A stretch of 64,000 nucleotides of DNA from Phycisphaerae bacterium. Its GTDB lineage: Bacteria > Planctomycetota > Phycisphaerae > Sedimentisphaerales > Anaerobacaceae. The notes below the pieces were generated by a model. That model was not told where the DNA came from and searched no databases. It saw only the letters and a program-made list of their open reading frames with translations. The translations under genes were made by a program, and so were the position numbers. Positions 43,945-55,118 of the stretch are shown here, one piece after another. Positions within the stretch are counted from its first letter, which is position 1, and every line of letters starts with the position of its first letter. The DNA lies in the NCBI GenBank assembly GCA_017993835.1, contig JAGOLX010000006.1, positions 1 to 64,000 on the forward strand, written 5' to 3'.

Positions 43945-45963
43945 ATGAGCGTGTGGCGTGTGGTCTTCGGGCTGTCTGTCCTTGTGCGGTTCTGTGCCGT
44001 TTCGACGGGAGATGGGGGCAATCGAGCCTTTCCCGAGACGACGCTGGAACGGGCCCTGGAGATGGGCTGCTCGCTAGTCGTTGCGGAGATTCGGTCGATC
44101 CGATGCGACGACCGGATGCACTACTACGATGCGAAGATCGTCCGGACCATCGTCGCGGGCGACCTGACGAAAGAGGAAGCGAATCGGACGTGGGATTTGT
44201 TTGCCGGCGCGTCCTACGGCGATGCCCTGAAGGCAGGGTCCTGCTACGCGATGTTCATCAGTCGGGACTGCCCCTACGCCTTCTCCTGGGTCTTTCGAGA
44301 CGATGTTCTGGAAATCGATCCTCTCGATACGGAAACCGGCAAACGACTCGTGCGCGCTGCAGACCACGTCTATGCAGGGACTTCGATTCTGCGATTCCGG
44401 CGAACGAGGCCTTGGTCGAGCAACGAAATGCCGAATCTGGCGGAGGAGTTGGCTTCGTTGTGCAAGGAGTTCCGGGACAACCCGGGCCGGCGGGCGGAGA
44501 CTGGCCGCAAGATCGCCGAATCGGATCTCGGCTCGCGAATCGACGAGTCCAGGCCCGAGTCGTCGATTCGTGCGTTTGTGCCCCCGAAGATCCTCTGCTC
44601 CCGCAAGCAGATGCTTTCCCTCCTGGGCTACCCGACCTGGACCAGCGGCTGGACCTATTCGTGGAGCTGTGACGACCGGGTGCGCGCCAGTGAAGGCGGG
44701 GACCATGTGGGTGTTCTATCGGCGACTTTCGATCCGAACGAGCAGGCGGTGTACGTCCTGTTCAGCATGCAGGAGCGATCCAGGTGGATCAGACCATCGC
44801 GACGCGAGGATTACCTGGCAGGGGCCGAAGGCGATCCCGCAGGCGTCGCCAGCGCCTTCCAGGAGGCATTGAAGGAATCCGATTGGGAGAAGGTGCTGTC
44901 GTACTGCACGCCTGCGATTCAGAGCAAAGCCCGGGAGTTCGACTCTGTGGAGGTCTTCTTCCGGCGGTTCGTGCCGGTGAAGGAGACTGCTTCTCGGCCT
45001 TTCGACCCACACATGTTCTCCAGTCGGGCAGGGAAGGTGGTCGAGATGACGGATGGGGTGGGTCTCTACGTGGGAGAGGATTCGTGGATGGAGTGGCCGT
45101 GGTCCCTGATCAAGGCCCGCACGGCTTGGCTGGTGGATTTCGAGTTGCTTCCTTTGGATGACTTCCTTCGAAAGACCCAGTTCATCCAAGAGTCGAGGAA
45201 GAGCGGCTCCAGGACCGCCCCGGACGAGTTCCGCAAGGCCATCAGGTACGTCCTCAGCCCGGTCAGCAGGGAATTCGTGATCGGGAAACCGATGTTGTTC
45301 CGATTGGAGATGACGAACGTCGGGGACAAGCCGATCGGGTACTATCGCACGGAGGTTCTGCTGAACGATCCCATGCTCGTCACCGATCCGAACGGGAAGG
45401 TATTGCCCTATGTGGACACGAGTTACCAACTCGCCATGGGCGAGAGCGCGATCCTCCCCGGCGAGGTGATTGTCCTCGGCGAAGCCTATGATGTGACGCT
45501 GCAATACCGCATCGTCCGGCCCGGTCGGTATCGATTCCAGTTTGGCGGCTGGCCTCGCGGGAGCAAATCGTCGAATGTCTGCGAAGTGGAGGTCAAGCCG
45601 GGCGCGCTGTCGGACGCAGAACGCATCAGCGAGAATCTCCTGTCCATAATGCCGGCTGGGTGGCGATTCGAGCGAATGCTCGCGCTGCCTCCTGGGGAGG
45701 AGGATGCACCGGGGGCCGGGGGACTCTTCTTCAATCTGATCGGCGGACGGTGGAGCAAGGGGGGCGACCAAGGCGTGTTCCTCCAGATCTACAAGGCGAC
45801 CGATCCGGCGGACATTGATCCCTGGCTGAAGGAAGCCCTCGATCTATGGGGTCTGAGCCCCTGGGGTCTCGTCTACGCCCGCGTCAATGAGGCCGAGCGA
45901 CTCTGGCCCGACTACAGGACACAGATCGAACGAGTACTGGAGATCAAACCTCTGGCGCGATAG
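43945..45963 (+). CDS. Large secreted protein of unknown function
   Basis: A 672-residue protein with a signal-like N-terminus (VWRVVFGLSVLVRFCAVSTG). The first 160 residues (MGCSLVVAEIRSIRCDDR, GDLTKEEANRTWDLFAGASY, CYAMFISRDCPYAFSW) resemble extracytoplasmic domains of planctomycete lineage proteins. A middle part fits a SnoaL/NTF2-like fold (EALKESDWEKVLSYCTPAIQ), and a late Ig-like segment follows (FRLEMTNVGDKPIGYYRTEV). No family is certain. GGAGG lies nine bases before ATG 43945. It is convergent with the fucosidase gene, the two stop codons being directly adjacent. Confidence 0.7.
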   Translation: MSVWRVVFGLSVLVRFCAVSTGDGGNRAFPETTLERALEMGCSLVVAEIRSIRCDDRMHYYDAKIVRTIVAGDLTKEEANRTWDLFAGASYGDALKAGSCYAMFISRDCPYAFSWVFRDDVLEIDPLDTETGKRLVRAADHVYAGTSILRFRRTRPWSSNEMPNLAEELASLCKEFRDNPGRRAETGRKIAESDLGSRIDESRPESSIRAFVPPKILCSRKQMLSLLGYPTWTSGWTYSWSCDDRVRASEGGDHVGVLSATFDPNEQAVYVLFSMQERSRWIRPSRREDYLAGAEGDPAGVASAFQEALKESDWEKVLSYCTPAIQSKAREFDSVEVFFRRFVPVKETASRPFDPHMFSSRAGKVVEMTDGVGLYVGEDSWMEWPWSLIKARTAWLVDFELLPLDDFLRKTQFIQESRKSGSRTAPDEFRKAIRYVLSPVSREFVIGKPMLFRLEMTNVGDKPIGYYRTEVLLNDPMLVTDPNGKVLPYVDTSYQLAMGESAILPGEVIVLGEAYDVTLQYRIVRPGRYRFQFGGWPRGSKSSNVCEVEVKPGALSDAERISENLLSIMPAGWRFERMLALPPGEEDAPGAGGLFFNLIGGRWSKGGDQGVFLQIYKATDPADIDPWLKEALDLWGLSPWGLVYARVNEAERLWPDYRTQIERVLEIKPLAR

Positions 45964-47328
45964 TCACTTCGTGGCTGTCGCTTTGCTGGCAGCGAGCGCT
46001 GCGGGCTCGATCTCGCCGGCTGGGCCGTCGAGCGCCAGCTTGACGATGGTGTCGATGTCCTGTCGGCTCTGTTGCGGCACGGTGACTTCGATCGCGTCCT
46101 GGGTCTGGCGTACACTGACGCTCCCACCAGTCAGCAGGGTCGCGTCCGTCACCTTCCTGGGCAGGGTGGGCAGGGTGATCGTGTCGCCCGACCAGTCGAG
46201 GATGTGCAGGTACACGGTGTTGCCTCGGCACGTGCTGGCGAGCGACGCGGTCGTCTTGTAGGGCCCGCCGCGAGTGCCATAGATGCTCTCGCCGTACTTG
46301 CTCAGCCATTGGCCCATCTCGTGGAGCCGCTCGACCTGCCTGGGCTCGATCTGTCCGTCCGGCATCGGACCGACGTTGAACAGGAGGTTCCCGTCGCCAC
46401 CAACGACGCGGATCAGCGTCTGGAGGCATTCCTTGAGCGACTTCATCTGGTCGTTCGGCTTCCACGCCCATTGCTGGCAGATGGTCATGCAAGTTTCCCA
46501 GGGCCGGTCCCTCTGGAAGCTGCCGATTTGCTGTTCCGGCGTGTCGTAGTCGCCCGCGTTCAGGTCCGTCTGCTCCGTGGTGCCGGCCATGCCCTGGCGG
46601 CCCTTGCTGACGCGGTTGTTGATGATCAGGTCGGGCTGGATTCCCTTCAGATAGGCGTACAGTCCGTTGCCATGCTCCAGTGTCCAGGGTTTTTCCCATT
46701 CGCCATCGAACCACATGATGCCCAGCGGGCCGTAGTTCTCGATGATCTCGCGGGTCTGGTTCTTCAAGTACTCGTAATATCGCAGCATGTTCGGGTTCGG
46801 CTTCTCGGTCCGTCCGCCGGGACTGCCCAGCGGATAGTCGGGGTGACGCCAGTCGCAAATGCTATGGTACGTGCAGAACTGGACCCCGTGCTTTTTGCAG
46901 GCATTGGAGAGTTCCTTGAGGACGTCGCGACGGAACGGCGTGTTGCCGATGTGGTAGTCCGTGTACTTCGAGGGCCACAGGCAGAAGCCGTCGTGGTGTT
47001 TGGACGTGATGACCAGGTACTTCATGCCCGCGTCCCTGGCGGTCGTCACCCAGGCCTCGGCATCGAACTGTGTCGGGTTGAATTGCTTGTGGAGCTGGTC
47101 GTACTCGTCGATGGGCACCTGCGCACCGCGAGACCAGCCGATCTCAGTACCCTTGAGACTGACCGGGCCCCAATGAACAAAGAGCCCGAACTTCATGTCC
47201 CGCCACCGCTGGATATCGGCGTCGCTCGTCTTGAGAGGGCCGGGCTGTGCCCATGTCGTGCTCCCCAACGCCAGGGACAGACAAACGATGCGAACTGCGT
47301 AACTTCTCGTGGGGCGCCATGCAAGCAT
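45964..47328 (-). CDS. GH29 alpha-L-fucosidase
   Basis: A 454-residue secreted glycosidase of family GH29 that releases alpha-linked L-fucose. It has a signal peptide (VRIVCLSLALGSTTWAQ) and the catalytic barrel with KFGLFVHWGPVSL, YLVITSKHHDGFCLWPSKYT and the nucleophile Asp208 in GIMWFDGEWE. Downstream is GNLLFNVGPMPDGQI and a C-terminal beta domain. AGGAG lies six bases before ATG 47328. It is 39 bp downstream of the small membrane protein and symporter genes in the same direction, which suggests release and uptake of the same sugar. Confidence 0.93.
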   Translation of the reverse strand: MLAWRPTRSYAVRIVCLSLALGSTTWAQPGPLKTSDADIQRWRDMKFGLFVHWGPVSLKGTEIGWSRGAQVPIDEYDQLHKQFNPTQFDAEAWVTTARDAGMKYLVITSKHHDGFCLWPSKYTDYHIGNTPFRRDVLKELSNACKKHGVQFCTYHSICDWRHPDYPLGSPGGRTEKPNPNMLRYYEYLKNQTREIIENYGPLGIMWFDGEWEKPWTLEHGNGLYAYLKGIQPDLIINNRVSKGRQGMAGTTEQTDLNAGDYDTPEQQIGSFQRDRPWETCMTICQQWAWKPNDQMKSLKECLQTLIRVVGGDGNLLFNVGPMPDGQIEPRQVERLHEMGQWLSKYGESIYGTRGGPYKTTASLASTCRGNTVYLHILDWSGDTITLPTLPRKVTDATLLTGGSVSVRQTQDAIEVTVPQQSRQDIDTIVKLALDGPAGEIEPAALAASKATATK

Positions 47329-47367
47329 GATCGGCTCCTATCCAGTTCTTTCCATGTCGATGTAAGA

Positions 47368-47523
47368 TCACTGTGCGGGACGGTCGGGCGCGTCGGGCGG
47401 GGGGGAAGAGGCTGGCTGATCGATGTGCCAGACCGCCCGGATCAGGGCGACGGCGACCCACGCGCCGCTGAGAATGACCACCGCGGCTGCCAGAATGACG
47501 ATTGCCAAGAGGCCAAACTTCAT
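47368..47523 (-). CDS. Small single-helix membrane protein beside symporter
   Basis: A 51-residue protein with one transmembrane helix (LLAIVILAAAVVILSGAWVA) and a Pro-rich tail. Its ATG overlaps the symporter stop (ATGA), and a GGGAGG ribosome-binding site lies nine bases upstream, so it is clearly expressed with the transporter. Small accessory subunits are known for other SSS symporters (for example YhdT with PanF); I infer a similar role, without sequence-level proof. Confidence 0.7.
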   Translation of the reverse strand: MKFGLLAIVILAAAVVILSGAWVAVALIRAVWHIDQPASSPPPDAPDRPAQ

Positions 47524-48914
47524 CGATTCGCGCCTCCCTGGAACAGGCCGTGGAGGCAGTGTCCCACGGCGTACGCTGCCAGCGAACAGACCAACGCGGG
47601 CAGAACCGCGCCCACGTCGGTCGGGAAGATCATCTCCAACTGAAGCAGGATGGGCACGACGGTGCCCACAGTCATGGACAGAATGCCGGCCAGAGGACGC
47701 GGCTTGCGGAGCCACAGGCCGAGAATCAGGGCGGGCAGGATCGCGGGCGCCCAGATCTTGTAGCAGATCAACAACCCCTCGATGACGCTGGGGACGAACG
47801 CGGCTATGCCGGCCGCGACCGCCGCGATGGCGACCGTCGAGTATCGTCCCGCGATCAGCGCGGCGCTATCCTGGCGGGCGGTGAACCGCCGGAGGATGTC
47901 CTGGGTGAACACGACTGCCCCGGCGTTCAGCAGCGAGTCCAGGCTGGACAGGACGATGGAGACGAGGGACACCAGCAGCAGAGCATACGCGGCGTGGGGC
48001 ATGGTTGCCTTGACGAGGGTCAACAGGACGTAGTCTTCGCCTGTGCCGGCGGGCACGAACGGTTGCGCGACGATACCCAACGCGATCATCACGGTGAACC
48101 ACAGAACGCTGAACAGGCCGGCCAGAACGAACCCGTTGCGGGAGACCACCGTGGTCTTGGAGGCGAGGGCCAGATTCGCATAGGGCGGAATCAAGGTTTC
48201 CCCGAGGAAGAACGCCGTGACGAAGCCGATGATCTCCAGCAGCGGCGTGGTCTCGAATCCGCGGGTCGTCGCGGCTACGGCGTGCTGATAGAAGGCCGTC
48301 AGGCCGCCGTCGAGGTGAAACAGCAGCTCGTACAACAGGATGCCGGGCAACAGCAGCGCGAACAACGCGAAGTGAAAGGCGTCGGTGATCACGCTGGCCC
48401 GGAGGCCGCCGAAGGCAGTGTAGGAGGTTGTCACGACCGCGACCACCGCAACAGAGAGCCATCGCGGCAGGCCGAAGATGTCGTTCAGGACGACGCCGCC
48501 GGCGCTGATCATCACGGCGGAGAACAGGGTACACAGCAGGACGGAGATGATCCCCGCGAGGACCTGGCATCGGGGGCCGTACTTCTGCCCGAATACGTCG
48601 CCCAGGGTGCAGCAACCCTTCAGTTCCCGCAATCGGGGCGCCACGAGCCAGCCGACCAGGATGTTCTGGAGGGAGTAGGCTAGGCCGATCAGGAGGAACA
48701 GCAGGCCGCTGCGGCAGCCCCGGCCGACAAATCCGATGGAGAACGCCGGGCCCACATAGGTGGCGCACAGGCTCCCGAAGATCAGCGACAGAGGCAGCGC
48801 CCGACGGGCGACGGAGAAGTCCTCGTATTCCCGGGCGGTGCGAGCGCGCGCAGCGACGACGATCAGCACGATCACGTAGCCTGCAACGAACACCGTCGAG
48901 AGAACCACAGGCAC
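47520..48914 (-). CDS. Sodium:solute symporter (SSS family)
   Basis: A 464-residue membrane transporter with about 12-13 predicted helices. Family marks include YEDFSVARRALPLSLIFGSL, a GGLRASVITDAFHFALFALL segment (like the SSS signature) and SIVLSSLDSLLNAGAVVFTQ. Members use sodium to import sugars, amino acids, organic acids or vitamins. The operon with a fucosidase suggests a sugar, perhaps fucose, but this is inference. The start is GTG 48914, with AAGG close upstream. The small membrane protein and fucosidase follow. Confidence 0.88.
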   Translation of the reverse strand: MPVVLSTVFVAGYVIVLIVVAARARTAREYEDFSVARRALPLSLIFGSLCATYVGPAFSIGFVGRGCRSGLLFLLIGLAYSLQNILVGWLVAPRLRELKGCCTLGDVFGQKYGPRCQVLAGIISVLLCTLFSAVMISAGGVVLNDIFGLPRWLSVAVVAVVTTSYTAFGGLRASVITDAFHFALFALLLPGILLYELLFHLDGGLTAFYQHAVAATTRGFETTPLLEIIGFVTAFFLGETLIPPYANLALASKTTVVSRNGFVLAGLFSVLWFTVMIALGIVAQPFVPAGTGEDYVLLTLVKATMPHAAYALLLVSLVSIVLSSLDSLLNAGAVVFTQDILRRFTARQDSAALIAGRYSTVAIAAVAAGIAAFVPSVIEGLLICYKIWAPAILPALILGLWLRKPRPLAGILSMTVGTVVPILLQLEMIFPTDVGAVLPALVCSLAAYAVGHCLHGLFQGGANR

Positions 48915-48986
48915 AACCTTATCGCCGTCCCTTGAGTCATCCGCATCGCCTCCGCCGGCTCAACGGGGGCCCAAGCGGAGGCCTTT

Positions 48987-50066
48987 TCACTCATGCCCTT
49001 CCTGAAACGCCTCCTCCTCCAACTCGCTGATCGCGGCGTCCAGGTCGGCCTCCGTGCGAATCCACCCGAATCGTGTGTCGACGAGAAACGCGCTGTACCA
49101 TTGAATCAGGTTCTTCGCGAAGTCGTCGTCCCTACAGTACAGGCCGAAGGAGATCTCGCCCGCGTGGGATTCGGCCTTCCGCGGCCTCTGCGGAAAGGCC
49201 AGCAACCCGGCGCTGCGGGTGATCAGGAACTCGATGTCGGAGACCTTGCTGTTGTAGATCTTCAGCCGGCCCGACTCGATGGCCTCCGGAAACCGGCGGA
49301 ACAGGTGCCTCGCGGCGTTCGAGAAGCCCGGGACGCTCAGGTTCATCGCTCGATGCACGCGAACATCCGGGTACTCGTGGAGGATCGTGTGGAGCTGGCT
49401 GAGATAGTCCTCCATGGGCTGGCGTTCACCTTCGAACAACATGCAGGTCCACAGCTCGCCTTGGCCGCTGGCGTCGAGCTGTTCTTCGAGCATCCTCTTG
49501 GCGGTTTCGTAGGTGTCGCGACGGTTGCCGAGCACCTTCAACTGGCGTTCCGTCAAAACCTGCGCCCAGACGGGCATGTCGCTCGGCAGCGATTCCGGCG
49601 GGCAGACCCCCAGGCGGGTCATCAGACGGAGGAACTGCTTGTGTTCCGACCCGTAAAACCTCCGGCCGACCACGCTGCCGACGTTGCCGTTGCACTCCAG
49701 GCCGTACCGTTTGTGATACCCGAACGACAGGCGGTGCACATCCTGACCTCGCTCCTTGAGCAGCTTCTCCAGCTCGCAGATCAGGAAGATCGCCTGCTTC
49801 TCCGGCGCCTTGTCGATTGACAGATGCACGTTGGGGCACAGGACGATCGGCCGTTTGCCCAACATGTTCAGGAGAGAGCCGATCTCAGTGACGACCTGCT
49901 CCAGCTCCTCGCGGCCGTCATAGCGCTCCACGCAGACGAAGACCACCAGCACATTGTTGAAACTCACCCTCGCCTGAGGAGGGGAGATCGTGGCCGGGTC
50001 GATCCTCGCGCTCGGTTCCTTGTCCTCGAAGTAACAGGAAGAACACTGATAGCTGTCCAAAATCAT
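48987..50066 (-). CDS. ThrRS-editing-domain-like protein with unknown C-terminal domain
   Basis: A 359-residue protein. Residues about 38-135 resemble the archaeal-type threonyl-tRNA synthetase editing (D-aminoacyl-tRNA deacylase-like) domain: VLVVFVCVERYDGREELEQV, CPNVHLSIDKAPEKQAIFLI, and VHRLSFGYHKRYGLECNGN, corresponding to the family's HLS and PFGWYK..CKGH motifs. The usual synthetase domains are absent. The C-terminal 200 residues (LRLMTRLGVCPPE, ARHLFRRFPEAIESGRLKIY, LITRSAGLLAFP) match nothing I know. A CSSC pair lies at residues 8-11. It is the last gene of a sigma-factor operon. Confidence 0.55.
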   Translation of the reverse strand: MILDSYQCSSCYFEDKEPSARIDPATISPPQARVSFNNVLVVFVCVERYDGREELEQVVTEIGSLLNMLGKRPIVLCPNVHLSIDKAPEKQAIFLICELEKLLKERGQDVHRLSFGYHKRYGLECNGNVGSVVGRRFYGSEHKQFLRLMTRLGVCPPESLPSDMPVWAQVLTERQLKVLGNRRDTYETAKRMLEEQLDASGQGELWTCMLFEGERQPMEDYLSQLHTILHEYPDVRVHRAMNLSVPGFSNAARHLFRRFPEAIESGRLKIYNSKVSDIEFLITRSAGLLAFPQRPRKAESHAGEISFGLYCRDDDFAKNLIQWYSAFLVDTRFGWIRTEADLDAAISELEEEAFQEGHE

Positions 50067-50090
50067 AGCGATTCGTCGGTTCTGTATTCC

Positions 50091-50399
50091 TTACTGCAGG
50101 TTCACGTGACTGCGGCTGGGACTCCGCGTTGACGCCTGAGCCTTCTTCATCCGGGACGCAATCCCCGCGTCAACGCGCGAAATAAAAAGGCCGACGTCCG
50201 GGGTCACCACCTTGTCGCCGAACCCGACGCTGTTCATCAGTCGCACGATCTCCGTCGCGTCCCAGAAGTCCCGGGACTGGCTGATCCGCTTGGCTTCGTC
50301 GCGGGTCAGCGACTTCAGAAAGGTCGGCAGGCATCCGTCGCGAAGCGACGAGGCATAGTCGGCCAACAACTCCTGGATCTCTCGATCTGCGTTCAGCAT
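50091..50399 (-). CDS. Small hypothetical protein in sigma-factor operon
   Basis: A 102-residue, mostly helical protein (IQELLADYASSLRDGCLPTF, SRDFWDATEIVRLMNSVGFG) without recognised family, membrane segment or zinc motif. It lies between an ECF-like sigma gene (66 bp upstream) and the ThrRS-editing-like gene (24 bp downstream), all in one direction. By position it could be a regulator of the sigma factor, but nothing in the sequence shows this. GGAG lies about ten bases before ATG 50399. Confidence 0.6.
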   Translation of the reverse strand: MLNADREIQELLADYASSLRDGCLPTFLKSLTRDEAKRISQSRDFWDATEIVRLMNSVGFGDKVVTPDVGLFISRVDAGIASRMKKAQASTRSPSRSHVNLQ

Positions 50400-50465
50400 A
50401 TGTAAACCACTCCCATCTTGCGACCCCCCGGGCGATCGGTCGCGGCGGGGGACCGGGGAAGATTG

Positions 50466-51050
50466 TCAGTCTTCCCCACCAGAAGCCCTGCAATGTTCCT
50501 TCAGCATTTCTCTCAATTTCAAAATCGTCCGAAACTCCAGCATCTTGACCGCGCCGACCGTCGTCTCGAGCTGGTTGGCGATGGCCCGGTTGGACATCCC
50601 TTCCATCCACAGCTCGATGGCCTTGCGTTCCCGGGCCTTGAGCTTGCCGAGCATCTTGTGCAGGAGCTGCTTGAGCTCCTCCTGCGAAATCAGGTCGCAC
50701 AATCCCAAATCGGGCGCCATCAGGTTCTGCAAGTCGTCCTGAGACAGGGACGCCCTGCGGTTCATCCTGCGGTACACCTCACGAAGACGCTTGCGCATGT
50801 AGTACAGGTACACCGTCCGGAGCAGGTGCCTGTCGTCCTCGATGTCCCGCAGGTGATCCGGGTTCTCCCAGATGTCCGCGTACACGTCCTCCAACACATC
50901 TTCACATTCCACTTCGTTGCCGAGATAGCGATGCAGATGCCCGATGAATGGGGCAAAAGTCGCCCTCACAAAAGGCTCCATGGCTCGGCGACGCGACTCG
51001 GTATCAGAGGCCGTCAGTTGCTTCAGAGCGTTACGCAGCCGCTTATCCAT
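50466..51050 (-). CDS. ECF-like sigma factor
   Basis: A 194-residue sigma factor. Region 2 (FIGHLHRYLGNEVECEDVLE, DVYADIWENPDHL, LLRTVYLYYMRKRLRE) and region 4 (MLGKLKARERKAIELWMEGM, AIANQLETTVGAVKMLEFRT) are both present. The region 4 helix-turn-helix resembles that of large-subfamily planctomycete ECF factors. The ribosome-binding site at ATG 51050 is weak. It heads the operon with the 102-residue and ThrRS-editing-like genes and no classical anti-sigma factor is adjacent. Confidence 0.82.
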   Translation of the reverse strand: MDKRLRNALKQLTASDTESRRRAMEPFVRATFAPFIGHLHRYLGNEVECEDVLEDVYADIWENPDHLRDIEDDRHLLRTVYLYYMRKRLREVYRRMNRRASLSQDDLQNLMAPDLGLCDLISQEELKQLLHKMLGKLKARERKAIELWMEGMSNRAIANQLETTVGAVKMLEFRTILKLREMLKEHCRASGGED

Positions 51051-51287
51051 GTCCGGCTTTTCATTCTCCTATACTGGTTGCTTGGACCCCGCCGAAACCC
51101 GACGCTCTCGCGCCGGTGGCTGCGGGCGACACATCCCGCATGGCTCCATTCTACCGCCAGGATCCAAGGAGTTCAACCGGCTTGACCTCCTACGCGTCCA
51201 TCTCCTCTCGGGTCCGCCTCTGAACGTCGTCGCGCAACCCGACCCGAGACCACTTCAGAACTCACTGGGCGTCCCTTCGGGACGCGA

Positions 51288-54053
51288 TCAGACACGATGA
51301 CAGCCCAAGCCCCTCCACTGTAGGTACACGGCGCCCCAGGCCGCCAGGACGATCCCAGCGAAGATCCCCCAATCCGCTCGCAGATACCGCCCGACGCCGC
51401 GGATCAGGCCCGCGGGCAGATCCGCCAGGGCACTCCCCACAGCGCCGGAGGACTGCGGAGCCTGGCCCGAGGCCTTGTTGCCGCTCGCCGGATCGACCAC
51501 GGTCCCTGCCGGGACGTCGGTCTTGTCTCCGGCGGGCGTCTCCTGAGGCTGGGCCTGCGGGACGATCCCGGCGGGACTGTTGGGAGTCTCCACGGGCTGA
51601 ACCGGGGCGGCGGGAGTCGCTGCGTTCGGCTCGGCCGGGACGACCAACTTCATCTCGACCGGGCCCGCCGTGGCGACCTCGGAAGTCGCGACCGCTGCGC
51701 TGGTCACCGTGTCTTTCTTCTTACTGGCTTCGCTCTCGATTCGATCGAGCAGTCGGAGCAGGGTCTTCGCCGACTCCGCGTTCTTCAGGTCCTGCTTGGC
51801 GATTTCCAGGGGCTCGCGGGCATAACCCGTCTCGCCCACGCCCAGCAGGTGATACCCGAGGAGAAGCTGCATGTCGCCGTCGTAGGCGAACTGATCGAGC
51901 TTCTCCACGAGATCTTCGATCTGTGCGAACAGGATGTCGTCGTCGGCATACAAGCCGCGAGGATAGAACACGCCTTCCTTCTCCGGCGATACCCGGCTCA
52001 ACGCCGTTCGCAGGATCTCGGCCGACTCGGTATACCGCCCGTTCGCGAACAGCGCCTGGGCGCACGCGAACGGCAGGATCATGTCGTCGGGCGACGAGCG
52101 CATGGCCTGCTCGAACTCGCCTGCGGCCTCGCCGTACCGGCCGGCCTCGAAGCTCTTGACGCCTTCCTCGAATCGCGTGTCGGCCAGCGTCGCAGGGGCC
52201 GGTTCCGTCCCTTGCTCGTCCAGCTTCTCACGGACGTCGGCCCACGTGCTGCGATCCACCGGCGGCGCCTCGCTCGGGACGACCGTCTGGGACGTCCCGC
52301 TGGTGTAGGTGCCATCCGCATTCATGTAGTAGTTGTACGTGTAGTAGTTGTAGTTGTCCGCGGCCACCTCCTGGGCGATCGGGAAGTATCCGTACCATTC
52401 GTACGGGTGCCACCCATACCAGTAGTAGCGAACGTACGAATAATCCCAGGGCCACCAGCCGCCCAGACTGACGAAAACATACTTGCGGTGGTAGTACGGA
52501 TACACATGACGGAAGACCCTGTGTGGGCCAAAACTGTAATACACCGGGTAGTAGTAGTGCGGCCAGACCACACGATGGTGGAGCCGCCAGGAATGGTCAT
52601 AATAGGAATACGTGCGTCGGTAGTCATGCCGGATCAGATCCGGTCGATCGTAGTACCGCGGATGCGGGCGAGGAGGCGGCGAGACGTGTCCATCGCCCCT
52701 CGTCCCCGGGCCGGCCTTCGGTCCCCCTGGGCCCCCGGACGGCGGGCCGCTCGGTCGCGACTGCTTGGCCAGGCGGGACGCCAGCACATCTCGGCGATCC
52801 TGGGCTTTGACGTCCTGCTGCCTGACCGCGGCGGCCGGTGTCATATCGGTCCGGGACCGCTGAACGGCAGAGGGGATCTGCCTGTCCCCCAGATGGCTCC
52901 GCAGCATCGTTCGACTGCGGACGTTCTCGGTTGTGCCAACGGAGCCCGGCCGCTCGACGGACGCCGTCGGGCTCTGCGACCGTGAGCCGGCGGAACCGCT
53001 GGGATTCTGCCTGCCGCCCAGGACTCGCTGGCGGTTCTCGGTGAACTCCCCGGCGGGACGTCGCGGCGCGTCGCTCGTGCGATCCGTTGGGGTCGCCGTT
53101 GGGGAGGAGATATCCTGTCGCGTTGCGGAAGGGCTGATTGCGCCCTCTTTCCGGGTGGACCCGATCCTCGACGAGTACCGTTGGGCCGCCGAGCTTTCAC
53201 GGCTGCCCCCGATCACAGACCGGGTCCTGCTTTCCTGAGTTGTCGATCTGGCGCCCGACGAGGGGGCGGACGGCGTATTGTCGCCGATCCGGCCGCCGAT
53301 TCGGCTGCGACTTGCCGAACTCTCGTCAACGCGGGAAGCCCGGTTCTGCGGATCGGTCGCGATGCTCATGGAGCCTTCGCCGGAGGGTTGTCCCGAGTAG
53401 GACTGCTGCGATGGACTGGTCGTAAACGACCTGGTCCGGCTCGTCGCGCTTTCTCGAACGGAGGGAGTCGGGTTTCGCGAACTGATGGCCCCGCCGATGG
53501 AACGTTCGCCAATCGAAGGCGTCGGAGCAGACGGCTGCGACGGGCTGGTCGTGAACGATCGGCTCCGGCTTGTCGGGACGTTGGAACGCACCGACGGCGT
53601 CGAACCGCTCGAACCGATGGACGGAGACGACCGGCTAACCGACGGGCTCGGACGCGTCGCGGAGATCCGCGGAGAGGGCGTCGAATTCACCGAAGACCGA
53701 GGACTTGGCGAGACCGACCTGGGCGCACTAGGTGACCGCGTCACCGTTCTGCTGCTCGACGGGCTCGACCTCGGAGCAGAACTGAACGACCGCGAGGGAG
53801 ATGGTCTCGCACGATTGACACTGGGAGAGCGCGAGGGTGTCCTCGCAGGGGCCGACGGACTCGAAGCCCGACCGCTCGGGCTGGACCGGGAGCCCTCGCC
53901 GCCGGAGCCCCTTCGGCCGCCGGGCTGGCCAAGGGCCGGTAATCCGCCCAGCAGCGTCATTCCCATCAAGGCGGCAATCATCACCGTTCTCGCAACGTAA
54001 TGCCTGGGGTTGTGGAGCCCCACGGATCGAGATGACTCTCTTACGGCAAACAT
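51288..54053 (-). CDS. 921-residue low-complexity membrane/envelope protein
   Basis: Parts in order: signal or membrane segment (residues about 20-42); a Ser/Arg/Pro/Thr-rich disordered region to about 410 with imperfect repeats (SRSFTTSPSQPS, TRSFTTSPSQQS); a Tyr/His/Trp-rich block at about 440-600 (YDHSWRLHHRVVWPHYYYPV); a TPR-like helical region at about 640-780 (FEAGRYGEAAGEFEQAMRSS); an Ala/Pro-rich linker; and a C-terminal membrane helix (WGIFAGIVLAAWGAVYL). AAAGGAG lies seven bases before ATG 54053. No known family; probably an envelope scaffold. Confidence 0.72.
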   Translation of the reverse strand: MFAVRESSRSVGLHNPRHYVARTVMIAALMGMTLLGGLPALGQPGGRRGSGGEGSRSSPSGRASSPSAPARTPSRSPSVNRARPSPSRSFSSAPRSSPSSSRTVTRSPSAPRSVSPSPRSSVNSTPSPRISATRPSPSVSRSSPSIGSSGSTPSVRSNVPTSRSRSFTTSPSQPSAPTPSIGERSIGGAISSRNPTPSVRESATSRTRSFTTSPSQQSYSGQPSGEGSMSIATDPQNRASRVDESSASRSRIGGRIGDNTPSAPSSGARSTTQESRTRSVIGGSRESSAAQRYSSRIGSTRKEGAISPSATRQDISSPTATPTDRTSDAPRRPAGEFTENRQRVLGGRQNPSGSAGSRSQSPTASVERPGSVGTTENVRSRTMLRSHLGDRQIPSAVQRSRTDMTPAAAVRQQDVKAQDRRDVLASRLAKQSRPSGPPSGGPGGPKAGPGTRGDGHVSPPPRPHPRYYDRPDLIRHDYRRTYSYYDHSWRLHHRVVWPHYYYPVYYSFGPHRVFRHVYPYYHRKYVFVSLGGWWPWDYSYVRYYWYGWHPYEWYGYFPIAQEVAADNYNYYTYNYYMNADGTYTSGTSQTVVPSEAPPVDRSTWADVREKLDEQGTEPAPATLADTRFEEGVKSFEAGRYGEAAGEFEQAMRSSPDDMILPFACAQALFANGRYTESAEILRTALSRVSPEKEGVFYPRGLYADDDILFAQIEDLVEKLDQFAYDGDMQLLLGYHLLGVGETGYAREPLEIAKQDLKNAESAKTLLRLLDRIESEASKKKDTVTSAAVATSEVATAGPVEMKLVVPAEPNAATPAAPVQPVETPNSPAGIVPQAQPQETPAGDKTDVPAGTVVDPASGNKASGQAPQSSGAVGSALADLPAGLIRGVGRYLRADWGIFAGIVLAAWGAVYLQWRGLGCHRV

Positions 54054-54313
54054 CGCAATACTCCTTTCTCCCCGGCGGCAGCACTGTCGGTGAGCCTCAT
54101 CTCCCCATCCGGCCGACCGCCGGCACTCGATACGTCCAACAGGATCGCGTCGAATGATACCATAACCAGAGGCTCACCCTGCAACTCTACGGTTCTCCAG
54201 GTCTTTCCTGTTCACCAGTATAAGGCGTTGTAGATACCTGGAGTTACGAAAAAAGAGCGAGATCTGTGAAGGGAAGAAGGAATTGGCGCGGAATCAGGGT
54301 CTGGCAGGCCGTC

Positions 54314-54994
54314 TCACATGTCGGGGACCGCTTCCGGGTAGAACTGGCCCGTCGGGCTGATCTTGAAGACGTAGATCAGGCCCTCCTTGAGCGGCTGATA
54401 CACGGCGCTGCCGTAGATCGCCCGGATGCCGTATTCGTGGAGCCTCTCCGGATCGTTGGCCAGCTCCCAAATGCTGGACCAGAACAACTGCCGATGCGGG
54501 ATGGGCAGTGCCTCCAGCAGTCCGCTGTACCGCCTGGGTTCGGCGCCGGGCTCCTCGATCGGGTACCCGTTGTCCGGAGGCATCTTCTCGCCGTAGACTC
54601 GGCGCCAGAGGTACATGGCCCGGGACGTCCCGTCGCTCACCATTTTGTCGTCGAACTTGACGATCACGGCGTCGAAATGGACGACGTCGCCCTCGATGGT
54701 GTACTCCTTCTGCAAGATGACCTTGGCCTTGTCGTTGCGGTCCGTTTCGACGAAGCGGATCGTGGTCAGCAGTCGGTCGTCCTCGCGGCGCTGCGAGATC
54801 ACCTTGGCGTATCCGATCTGATCTTCAGCGGTCAGGTTGGCAATAGCCTGTCGGAGCTGTTTGTTCTCGGTGAGCAGATCGTGGAGGGTCATCGCGCTGC
54901 GGTAGATGCCCGGCCAGACGAAAGCGCCGGCCACGATGGCCATGGTGACGAGACCCAACAGGGCAAAACGCATTTTTCTGAGTAGTAACGCCAT
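54314..54994 (-). CDS. Membrane-anchored protein of unknown function
   Basis: A 226-residue protein with an N-terminal membrane helix (FALLGLVTMAIVAGAFVWPG), a short coiled coil (LLTENKQLRQAIANLTAEDQ) and a globular outer domain of about 165 residues (VILQKEYTIEGDVVHFDAVI, WSSIWELANDPERLHEYGIR). I recognise no family, though planctomycetes commonly encode similar proteins. ATG 54994 has only a weak GGAAA site upstream. It is divergent from the M14-like lipoprotein gene. Confidence 0.68.
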   Translation of the reverse strand: MALLLRKMRFALLGLVTMAIVAGAFVWPGIYRSAMTLHDLLTENKQLRQAIANLTAEDQIGYAKVISQRREDDRLLTTIRFVETDRNDKAKVILQKEYTIEGDVVHFDAVIVKFDDKMVSDGTSRAMYLWRRVYGEKMPPDNGYPIEEPGAEPRRYSGLLEALPIPHRQLFWSSIWELANDPERLHEYGIRAIYGSAVYQPLKEGLIYVFKISPTGQFYPEAVPDM

Positions 54995-55118
54995 TTATTT
55001 CCGATCCAACTGACCCAAGTGGCCGTGACGAACCTCGGGTGTCCGATGTTTCATCGGCCTGCGCAAACCGGTTTCTGCATTGAAATGCCCTTGGAATCCC
55101 AACTTTCGCCATTCCCCA

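Follow-up and report, generated by a model that had tools for sequence, protein, structure and literature searches.

An archaeal-type tRNA editing domain encoded in a conserved four-gene operon of uncultured planctomycete bacteria

Here we describe a four-gene operon, conserved in one group of uncultured planctomycete bacteria, that encodes a sigma factor of the extracytoplasmic function (ECF) type, a small protein (p102), an editing-domain protein (ED-X) and a sodium:solute symporter. It lies on a 64,000-nt stretch of DNA from a Phycisphaerae bacterium (GenBank assembly GCA_017993835.1, contig JAGOLX010000006.1, positions 1 to 64,000), hereafter the window. ED-X begins with a complete editing domain of the type known from archaeal threonyl-tRNA synthetase (ThrRS). 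We tentatively favour the reading that ED-X acts in trans in its bacterial host as an aminoacyl-tRNA deacylase of this type, made within a one-promoter unit together with the sigma factor, p102 and the symporter.

All four genes are on the minus strand, with the sigma factor (194 aa) at 50466..51050, p102 (102 aa) at 50091..50399, ED-X (359 aa) at 48987..50066 and the symporter (464 aa; SSF, PF00474, Pfam E 6.1e-28) at 47520..48914. An earlier, sequence-only reading had picked out the first three, and we confirm its positions, its strand and its gaps of 66 bp (sigma-p102) and 24 bp (p102-ED-X). The symporter was absent from that account; it starts 72 bp past ED-X and belongs to the unit. A pattern scan of 84,980 species genomes, which detects close ED-X relatives only, returned 40 loci. 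Of these, 39 came from records labelled Planctomycetota, Planctomycetes, Phycisphaerae, Phycisphaerales or Sedimentisphaerales, and the remaining one (L041, Marinomonas) is a chance match of 58 residues that was excluded from all counts. Contig-edge loci where a gene had no room were left uncounted for that gene; among the rest the sigma factor was found in 32/33, p102 in 35/36 and the symporter in 37/37, so that the three genes first noticed do occur together elsewhere. The sole miss for both sigma and p102 is L039, which was retained in the count. This locus, in CP070782.1, contains a broken second ED-X copy (L039 8001-8752) behind a run of Ns, with a symporter adjoining, and may be an assembly artefact or a decayed duplicate. 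Farther neighbours vary, and the only recurring extras are upstream genes for a tetratricopeptide repeat (TPR) protein, a beta-propeller-like protein and a small lipoprotein-like protein. In a spacing set hand-picked from the locus table (17 loci plus the window) the median intergenic gaps along the unit are 30, 24 and 75 bp, and in 6 of the 18 the p102 and ED-X genes share 4 bp. Moreover, purifying selection acts on each of the four genes, with ratios of nonsynonymous to synonymous substitution (dN/dS) of 0.02-0.15 in three pairs of loci. Every carrier belongs to one bacterial family, which would suit a gene order inherited by coincidence and lacking any functional link. We find that explanation extremely unlikely, however, as order and spacing have been maintained even where ED-X identity among carriers has fallen to 63% and the farther neighbours differ; the synteny counts likewise disfavour it.

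Residues 1-135 of ED-X (49662..50066, minus strand) form a complete match to PF08915, tRNA-Thr_ED (hmmscan, E 4.6e-18, 66.1 bits against a cut-off of 30.2), which is the single Pfam family matched by the protein. The HLS and FGYHKRY..C motifs from which a ThrRS-editing-like domain had been proposed sit within this secure match. Its NCBIfam matches, to threonine-tRNA ligase and Ser-tRNA(Thr) hydrolase, were local (residues 24-139) and far under cut-off. With the N-domain alone, phmmer matched 14 archaeal ThrRS editing-domain sequences in the PDB (best E 2.8e-12), and a separate search with ED-X also matched solved archaeal ThrRS editing domains (best E 1.5e-11). An AlphaFold model of ED-X was built from 34 sequences and is reliable in its N-half except for residues 81-85 and beyond 122, the weak spots being 81-85 and 123-141. 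Over residues 1-135 this model aligned with the N-terminal domain (NTD) of Aeropyrum ThrRS-2 at Z 18.6 and a root mean square deviation of 2.0 across 131 residues. Archaeal ThrRS NTDs head the fold ranking (Z 17-18.6), followed by D-aminoacyl-tRNA deacylase (DTD; about 13-14) and by other folds at 7 or less. Therefore, profile score, PDB matches and fold together establish that ED-X has a whole editing domain and not a motif look-alike, and the relation to PF08915 on which the sequence-only reading turned is upheld. Pfam reported no match to PF02580 (DTD) at E up to 10. As predicted, no synthetase domain was found in the 359 residues by Pfam or NCBIfam, and neither was an anticodon-binding domain.

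The key residues of the editing site can be followed across this alignment. Pairwise, Pyrococcus P80-F81-A82-H83 corresponds to ED-X P78-N79-V80-H81, Y120-K121 to H118-K119 and E134 to V132, the Pyrococcus numbering and the mutants below being taken from sections of PMC4491819. H81 and K119, the counterparts of His83 and Lys121, are invariant in 34/34 ED-X sequences. This alignment (A1) comprised the window and 33 of the 39 loci, omitting L026, a near copy of L025, along with the incomplete L029, L035, L036, L039 and L040; alignments A2 and A3 comprised 37 and 21 of the 39, each plus the window. In the archaeal work, the Lys-to-Met mutant was severely compromised in Pyrococcus, Aeropyrum and Methanocaldococcus, mutation of the lysine shifting the catalytic water, whilst His-to-Ala abolished activity in Pyrococcus and left it at a moderate level in Aeropyrum (PMC4491819). 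Y120A, E134A and the double mutant kept both activity and Ser/Thr discrimination, and the Aeropyrum equivalents were likewise active and specific (PMC4491819). Thus, by the mutants described there, ED-X keeps the residues that are important in archaea and has changed dispensable ones, and its altered H118 and V132 leave activity possible. The same source reports that catalysis by the archaeal domain needs the tRNA 2'-OH and is RNA-assisted, that the domain is more active on Gly-tRNA(Gly) than on Ser-tRNA(Thr), and that the side chains lining its amino-acid pocket are not what its specificity depends on (PMC4491819). This last property means that small aminoacyl-adenosine ligands could fit, which opens another account of ED-X: its substrate may be an aminoacyl ester or amide other than aminoacyl-tRNA, such as a nucleotide or nucleoside that carries an aminoacyl group and is imported by the symporter, and the purpose self-protection or salvage. 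The constancy of the symporter as a neighbour (37/37) would agree with this. We nevertheless consider it quite unlikely, given that the unit has no recurring neighbours beyond the three kinds of upstream gene named above.

The main rival to a deacylase is a sensor or regulator, in which the editing pocket would bind an aminoacyl-tRNA end or an aminoacyl-nucleotide and the C-terminal domain would signal to p102 and the sigma factor whether the pocket is filled; sigma activity would then follow the quality of charged tRNA or an imported amino acid. We see this as possible and as the less likely of the two. In its favour, the pocket residues H118, N79, V80 and V132 are changed yet invariant or nearly so, the loop residues N79 and V80 being specific to ED-X where Pyrococcus has Phe81 and Ala82. 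Eight cysteines (8, 11, 45, 77, 125, 155, 208 and 311) are invariant in 34/34 ED-X sequences. Five of these (8, 11, 45, 77 and 125) fall in the N-domain; the archaeal sequences compared share the Cys at position 125 and lack one at no fewer than two of the positions (45 and 77), which again would suit a sensor. Against it stands the lysine important for deacylation (PMC4491819), which is invariant in ED-X. Separately, ED-X was flagged in two genomes (G444 and G445) for a TGA inside the match; selenocysteine was rejected, as this TGA is an ordinary stop codon at residue 356.

Residues 140-359 (48990..49649, minus strand) are, judged by their sequence, an orphan domain, for which no relative outside ED-X was found. 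It equals the N-domain in conservation (dN/dS 0.028-0.077 against 0.019-0.089, three pairs), and a large conserved domain of this kind is a further point for the sensor account. The earlier description of the C-terminal 200 residues as unknown is borne out by Pfam, PHROGs, PADLOC and the PDB, none of which gave a convincing one. Specifically, Pfam returned no family for the window's C-domain at E up to 10 and only scattered weak matches for 38 members (best E 0.0051, QslA, in 9/38), with no anticodon-binding family by sequence among the 38. PADLOC and PHROGs, searched with the whole protein, gave no relative, and a profile search of the PDB with the C-domain gave nothing convincing (best E 0.2). 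Among 382 phylum genomes, relatives at E <= 0.1 were limited to the window's own genome (1/382), and plasmid records gave none. Foldseek gave no fold match at E <= 0.001 and a second aligner none at Z >= 5; these fold and profile searches are limited by a shallow alignment, with an effective number of sequences of 1.5. AlphaFold is unreliable here, with a mean pLDDT (predicted local distance difference test score) of 56.6 in the full protein and 57.1 for the C-domain alone. The strand and helix order of the low-confidence model (b-a-b-a-b-b-b-a, mean pLDDT 57) fits a phospholipase-D-like domain, an unsupported idea for which hhalign, from the shallow alignment, gave a probability of 0.1% to the host's one PLDc_2 protein.

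The host encodes a complete bacterial ThrRS (709 bits) with HSCAH and CRGPH motifs, which we take to be the two halves of the editing motif, as well as a separate true DTD. With both enzymes present, we rejected the idea that ED-X exists to fill a hole in the host's own proofreading. Of the 48 host tRNA loci, ARAGORN named three genes for tRNA(Thr) and three for tRNA(Gly), and position 73 is T in 3/3 of each. The archaeal editing domain depends on U73 of the tRNA, as stated in parts of PMC8762117 and PMC11295145, and the host tRNA(Thr) and tRNA(Gly) thus have the base it requires; this is a permissive test only, by which the substrate is not proven. A back-up role may also be considered, with ED-X editing serine when ThrRS is damaged by oxidants, through a mechanism that needs no catalytic cysteine, as against the oxidisable cysteine of ordinary ThrRS editing. 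The editing residue Cys182 of E. coli ThrRS is oxidised by H2O2, leading to Ser-tRNA(Thr) (PMC4041444, in part), the host ThrRS carries both motifs and catalysis by the archaeal domain is RNA-assisted (PMC4491819). However, ED-X itself has eight invariant cysteines and the operon promoter is of a housekeeping type, and we regard this role as very unlikely.

That promoter, of sigma-70 type, lies upstream of the sigma gene in the window (TTGAAC at 51176-51171, a 17-nt spacer and TAGAAT at 51153-51148, minus strand). It was the only promoter-like site (51148..51176) found between 47300 and 51300 by a consensus scan. In a count that covered the window and 32 other loci, the pattern TTGnnn-N16-18-TAnAAT was present upstream of sigma in 32/33, its start lying 36-181 nt ahead of the gene, as compared with 80/6600 shuffles. 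The same pattern was found upstream of ED-X in 0/35 loci (L029, L035, L036, L039 and L041 omitted) and downstream of ED-X in 1/39. No intrinsic terminators were found between the operon genes on the coding strand in a scan of the window region. It looks as though one housekeeping-type promoter serves the whole four-gene unit. The sequence-only reading had suggested a stress sigma factor controlling the editing-domain gene; as the only conserved promoter found is of sigma-70 type, ECF control of ED-X is unsupported, although an ECF promoter of some other sequence may exist. Between promoter and sigma start, the leader (51051-51147, minus strand) shows a short GC hairpin-like stretch when close relatives are aligned, and no Rfam element was matched within 45000-55000.

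The sigma factor was correctly recognised as ECF-like, exceeding the cut-off of the sigma70-ECF family TIGR02937 in NCBIfam (56.7 bits against 42.9); in Pfam, Sigma70_r4_2 scored 29.9 against 25.7 and Sigma70_r2 fell under its cut-off (18.4 against 24). The 102-residue protein had been called a protein without family, and indeed p102 matched nothing in Pfam, NCBIfam, PADLOC or PHROGs. It was found in 45/161 genomes of the order, all 45 within the 48 that have ED-X, and in the three ED-X genomes without it (G408, G469 and G471) ED-X is cut off at its start. A second sigma and p102 pair, with neither ED-X nor symporter, lies at L117 (7029-7924) in the single-contig genome G422 and is followed by an unrelated 458-aa protein. 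Divergent p102 copies in L118-L123 adjoin a large putative VIT-domain protein, so called from a motif only; in L119 and L120 another ECF-like gene lies on the far side of it. As p102 is also seen in the company of ECF factors at sites that lack ED-X, our inference is that sigma and p102 are a pair to which ED-X and the symporter have been added, and p102 is a probable partner of the sigma factor. Such a regulatory pair joined by ED-X is what a sensor would call for, as is the presence of ED-X beside sigma and p102 in all loci with intact upstream sequence.

ED-X is single-copy in the window's genome. It was found in 48/89 genomes of the same family (15/32 of the high-quality ones), and the order as a whole (161 genomes) yielded these 48 carriers and no more, all of one bacterial family; in a phylum sample it was seen in 1/392, the window's own. 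A PF08915 search of the family placed 47/48 carriers above cut-off, the 48th being a fragment. PF08915 carriers in the family are these same 48/89, and no other PF08915 protein replaces ED-X there. No match to ED-X was found in phage or plasmid records. Across the phylum sample the PF08915 cut-off was exceeded in 33/392 genomes, including the window's own. Of the 32 other matches, 30 were compared (L071-L100), two without a fetched locus being omitted. These are stand-alone proteins of about 138 aa that keep the active-site His and have replaced the Lys in 30/30 (N in 16, C in 10, T in 4). In all 30 the residue at position 45 is His or Gln, and that at 77 is His.

Were ED-X a deacylase, it would most likely hydrolyse small amino acids (serine, glycine) from U73 tRNAs, for example Ser-tRNA(Thr), via the RNA 2'-OH-assisted mechanism of the editing fold. 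The orphan C-domain would give tRNA or partner binding, replacing the archaeal anticodon-binding domain. ED-X would be co-made with sigma, p102 and the symporter from one housekeeping-type promoter, and the unit would couple solute uptake, sigma-directed transcription and aminoacyl-tRNA quality. Four observations weigh against this. Tyr120 is replaced by H118 in 34/34 sequences and the cross-subunit Glu134 by V (30), I (2) or T (2) at position 132, so that the pocket could accommodate a different ligand. A pure editing enzyme would not usually be linked with a sigma factor and a transporter. Only 48/89 family genomes carry ED-X, which is therefore not a general housekeeping proofreader, and with both halves of the editing motif in the host ThrRS, plus DTD, no proofreading gap is visible. 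A bolder possibility, which we consider unlikely, is a signalling operon in which ED-X reports aminoacyl-tRNA quality, or the mischarging of an imported amino acid, to its own ECF sigma via p102; if so, translation fidelity would control transcription and solute uptake. Proofreading domains have usually been studied within synthetases or as lone enzymes, and a strictly conserved operon in which such a domain is joined by a sigma factor and a transporter points to regulated proofreading or else to a sensor derived from a proofreading site. Moreover, ED-X can serve as a natural experiment on the importance of individual side chains in the archaeal editing fold, and its orphan C-domain, with dozens of invariant residues, awaits a structure in a unit of only four genes.

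Several features flank the operon. Upstream is a 921-aa TPR-containing protein (51288..54053, minus strand; TPR_19, 6.1e-07), present in 18/25 loci with room and not counted in the operon. An open reading frame of about 51 aa (47368-47523, minus strand), predicted as a single helix, has a 4-bp overlap with the symporter gene at its stop codon and may encode a small symporter accessory protein. The gene 3' of the symporter is variable, being an alpha-L-fucosidase (PF01120; 45964-47328, minus strand) in the window and a member of another large protein family in 8 loci.

Lastly, we compared ED-X with known systems. With the archaeal ThrRS NTDs of Pyrococcus, Aeropyrum and Methanocaldococcus it has in common the whole-domain fold, the active-site His and Lys and membership of PF08915. 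Unlike them, it has no ThrRS attached, carries extra invariant cysteines and resides in a bacterial host with its own ThrRS; Tyr120 has become His, Glu134 Val, Ile or Thr, Phe81 Asn and Ala82 Val. Freestanding archaeal ThrRS-ed, or ThrRS-2, was reportedly described by Korencic in 2004; ThrRS-ed acts in trans, as ED-X would. In archaeal ThrRS-ed, the editing domain is followed by an anticodon-binding domain (PMC8762117, in part), whereas ED-X has a different, orphan domain there. According to parts of PMC5424206 and PMC8762117, there are bacterial SepRS with an N-terminal tRNA-Thr-ED fusion, and archaeal SepCysS is adjoined by a small tRNA-Thr-ED gene. Like ED-X, these are archaeal-type editing domains outside ThrRS, found also in bacteria. 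The neighbours of ED-X are instead sigma, p102 and the symporter, and no SepRS or SepCysS was noticed among them, no profile search having been aimed at either. The expectation that the arrangement would be new therefore survives in part: we found no description of the ED-X fusion or the four-gene operon in the open-access literature, but editing domains of the archaeal type have been seen in bacteria before, given the SepRS fusions described in those sources, and stand-alone PF08915 proteins occur in other Planctomycetota. The latter, of about 138 aa, are free-standing and share Pfam family and phylum with ED-X but have neither its Lys nor its C-domain; phmmer with the window's N-domain scored 9/30 of them, at 18 bits or less, against 49.9 bits for Methanocaldococcus. 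DTD, for which a cross-subunit Gly-cisPro motif is described, is related in fold (Z about 13-14), ED-X being without a PF02580 match. With the ECF sigma operons of Planctomycetota, the unit shares a sigma gene and a small downstream partner gene; it differs from them in having a housekeeping-type promoter, with none that is evidently self-directed, and in including an editing-domain protein.

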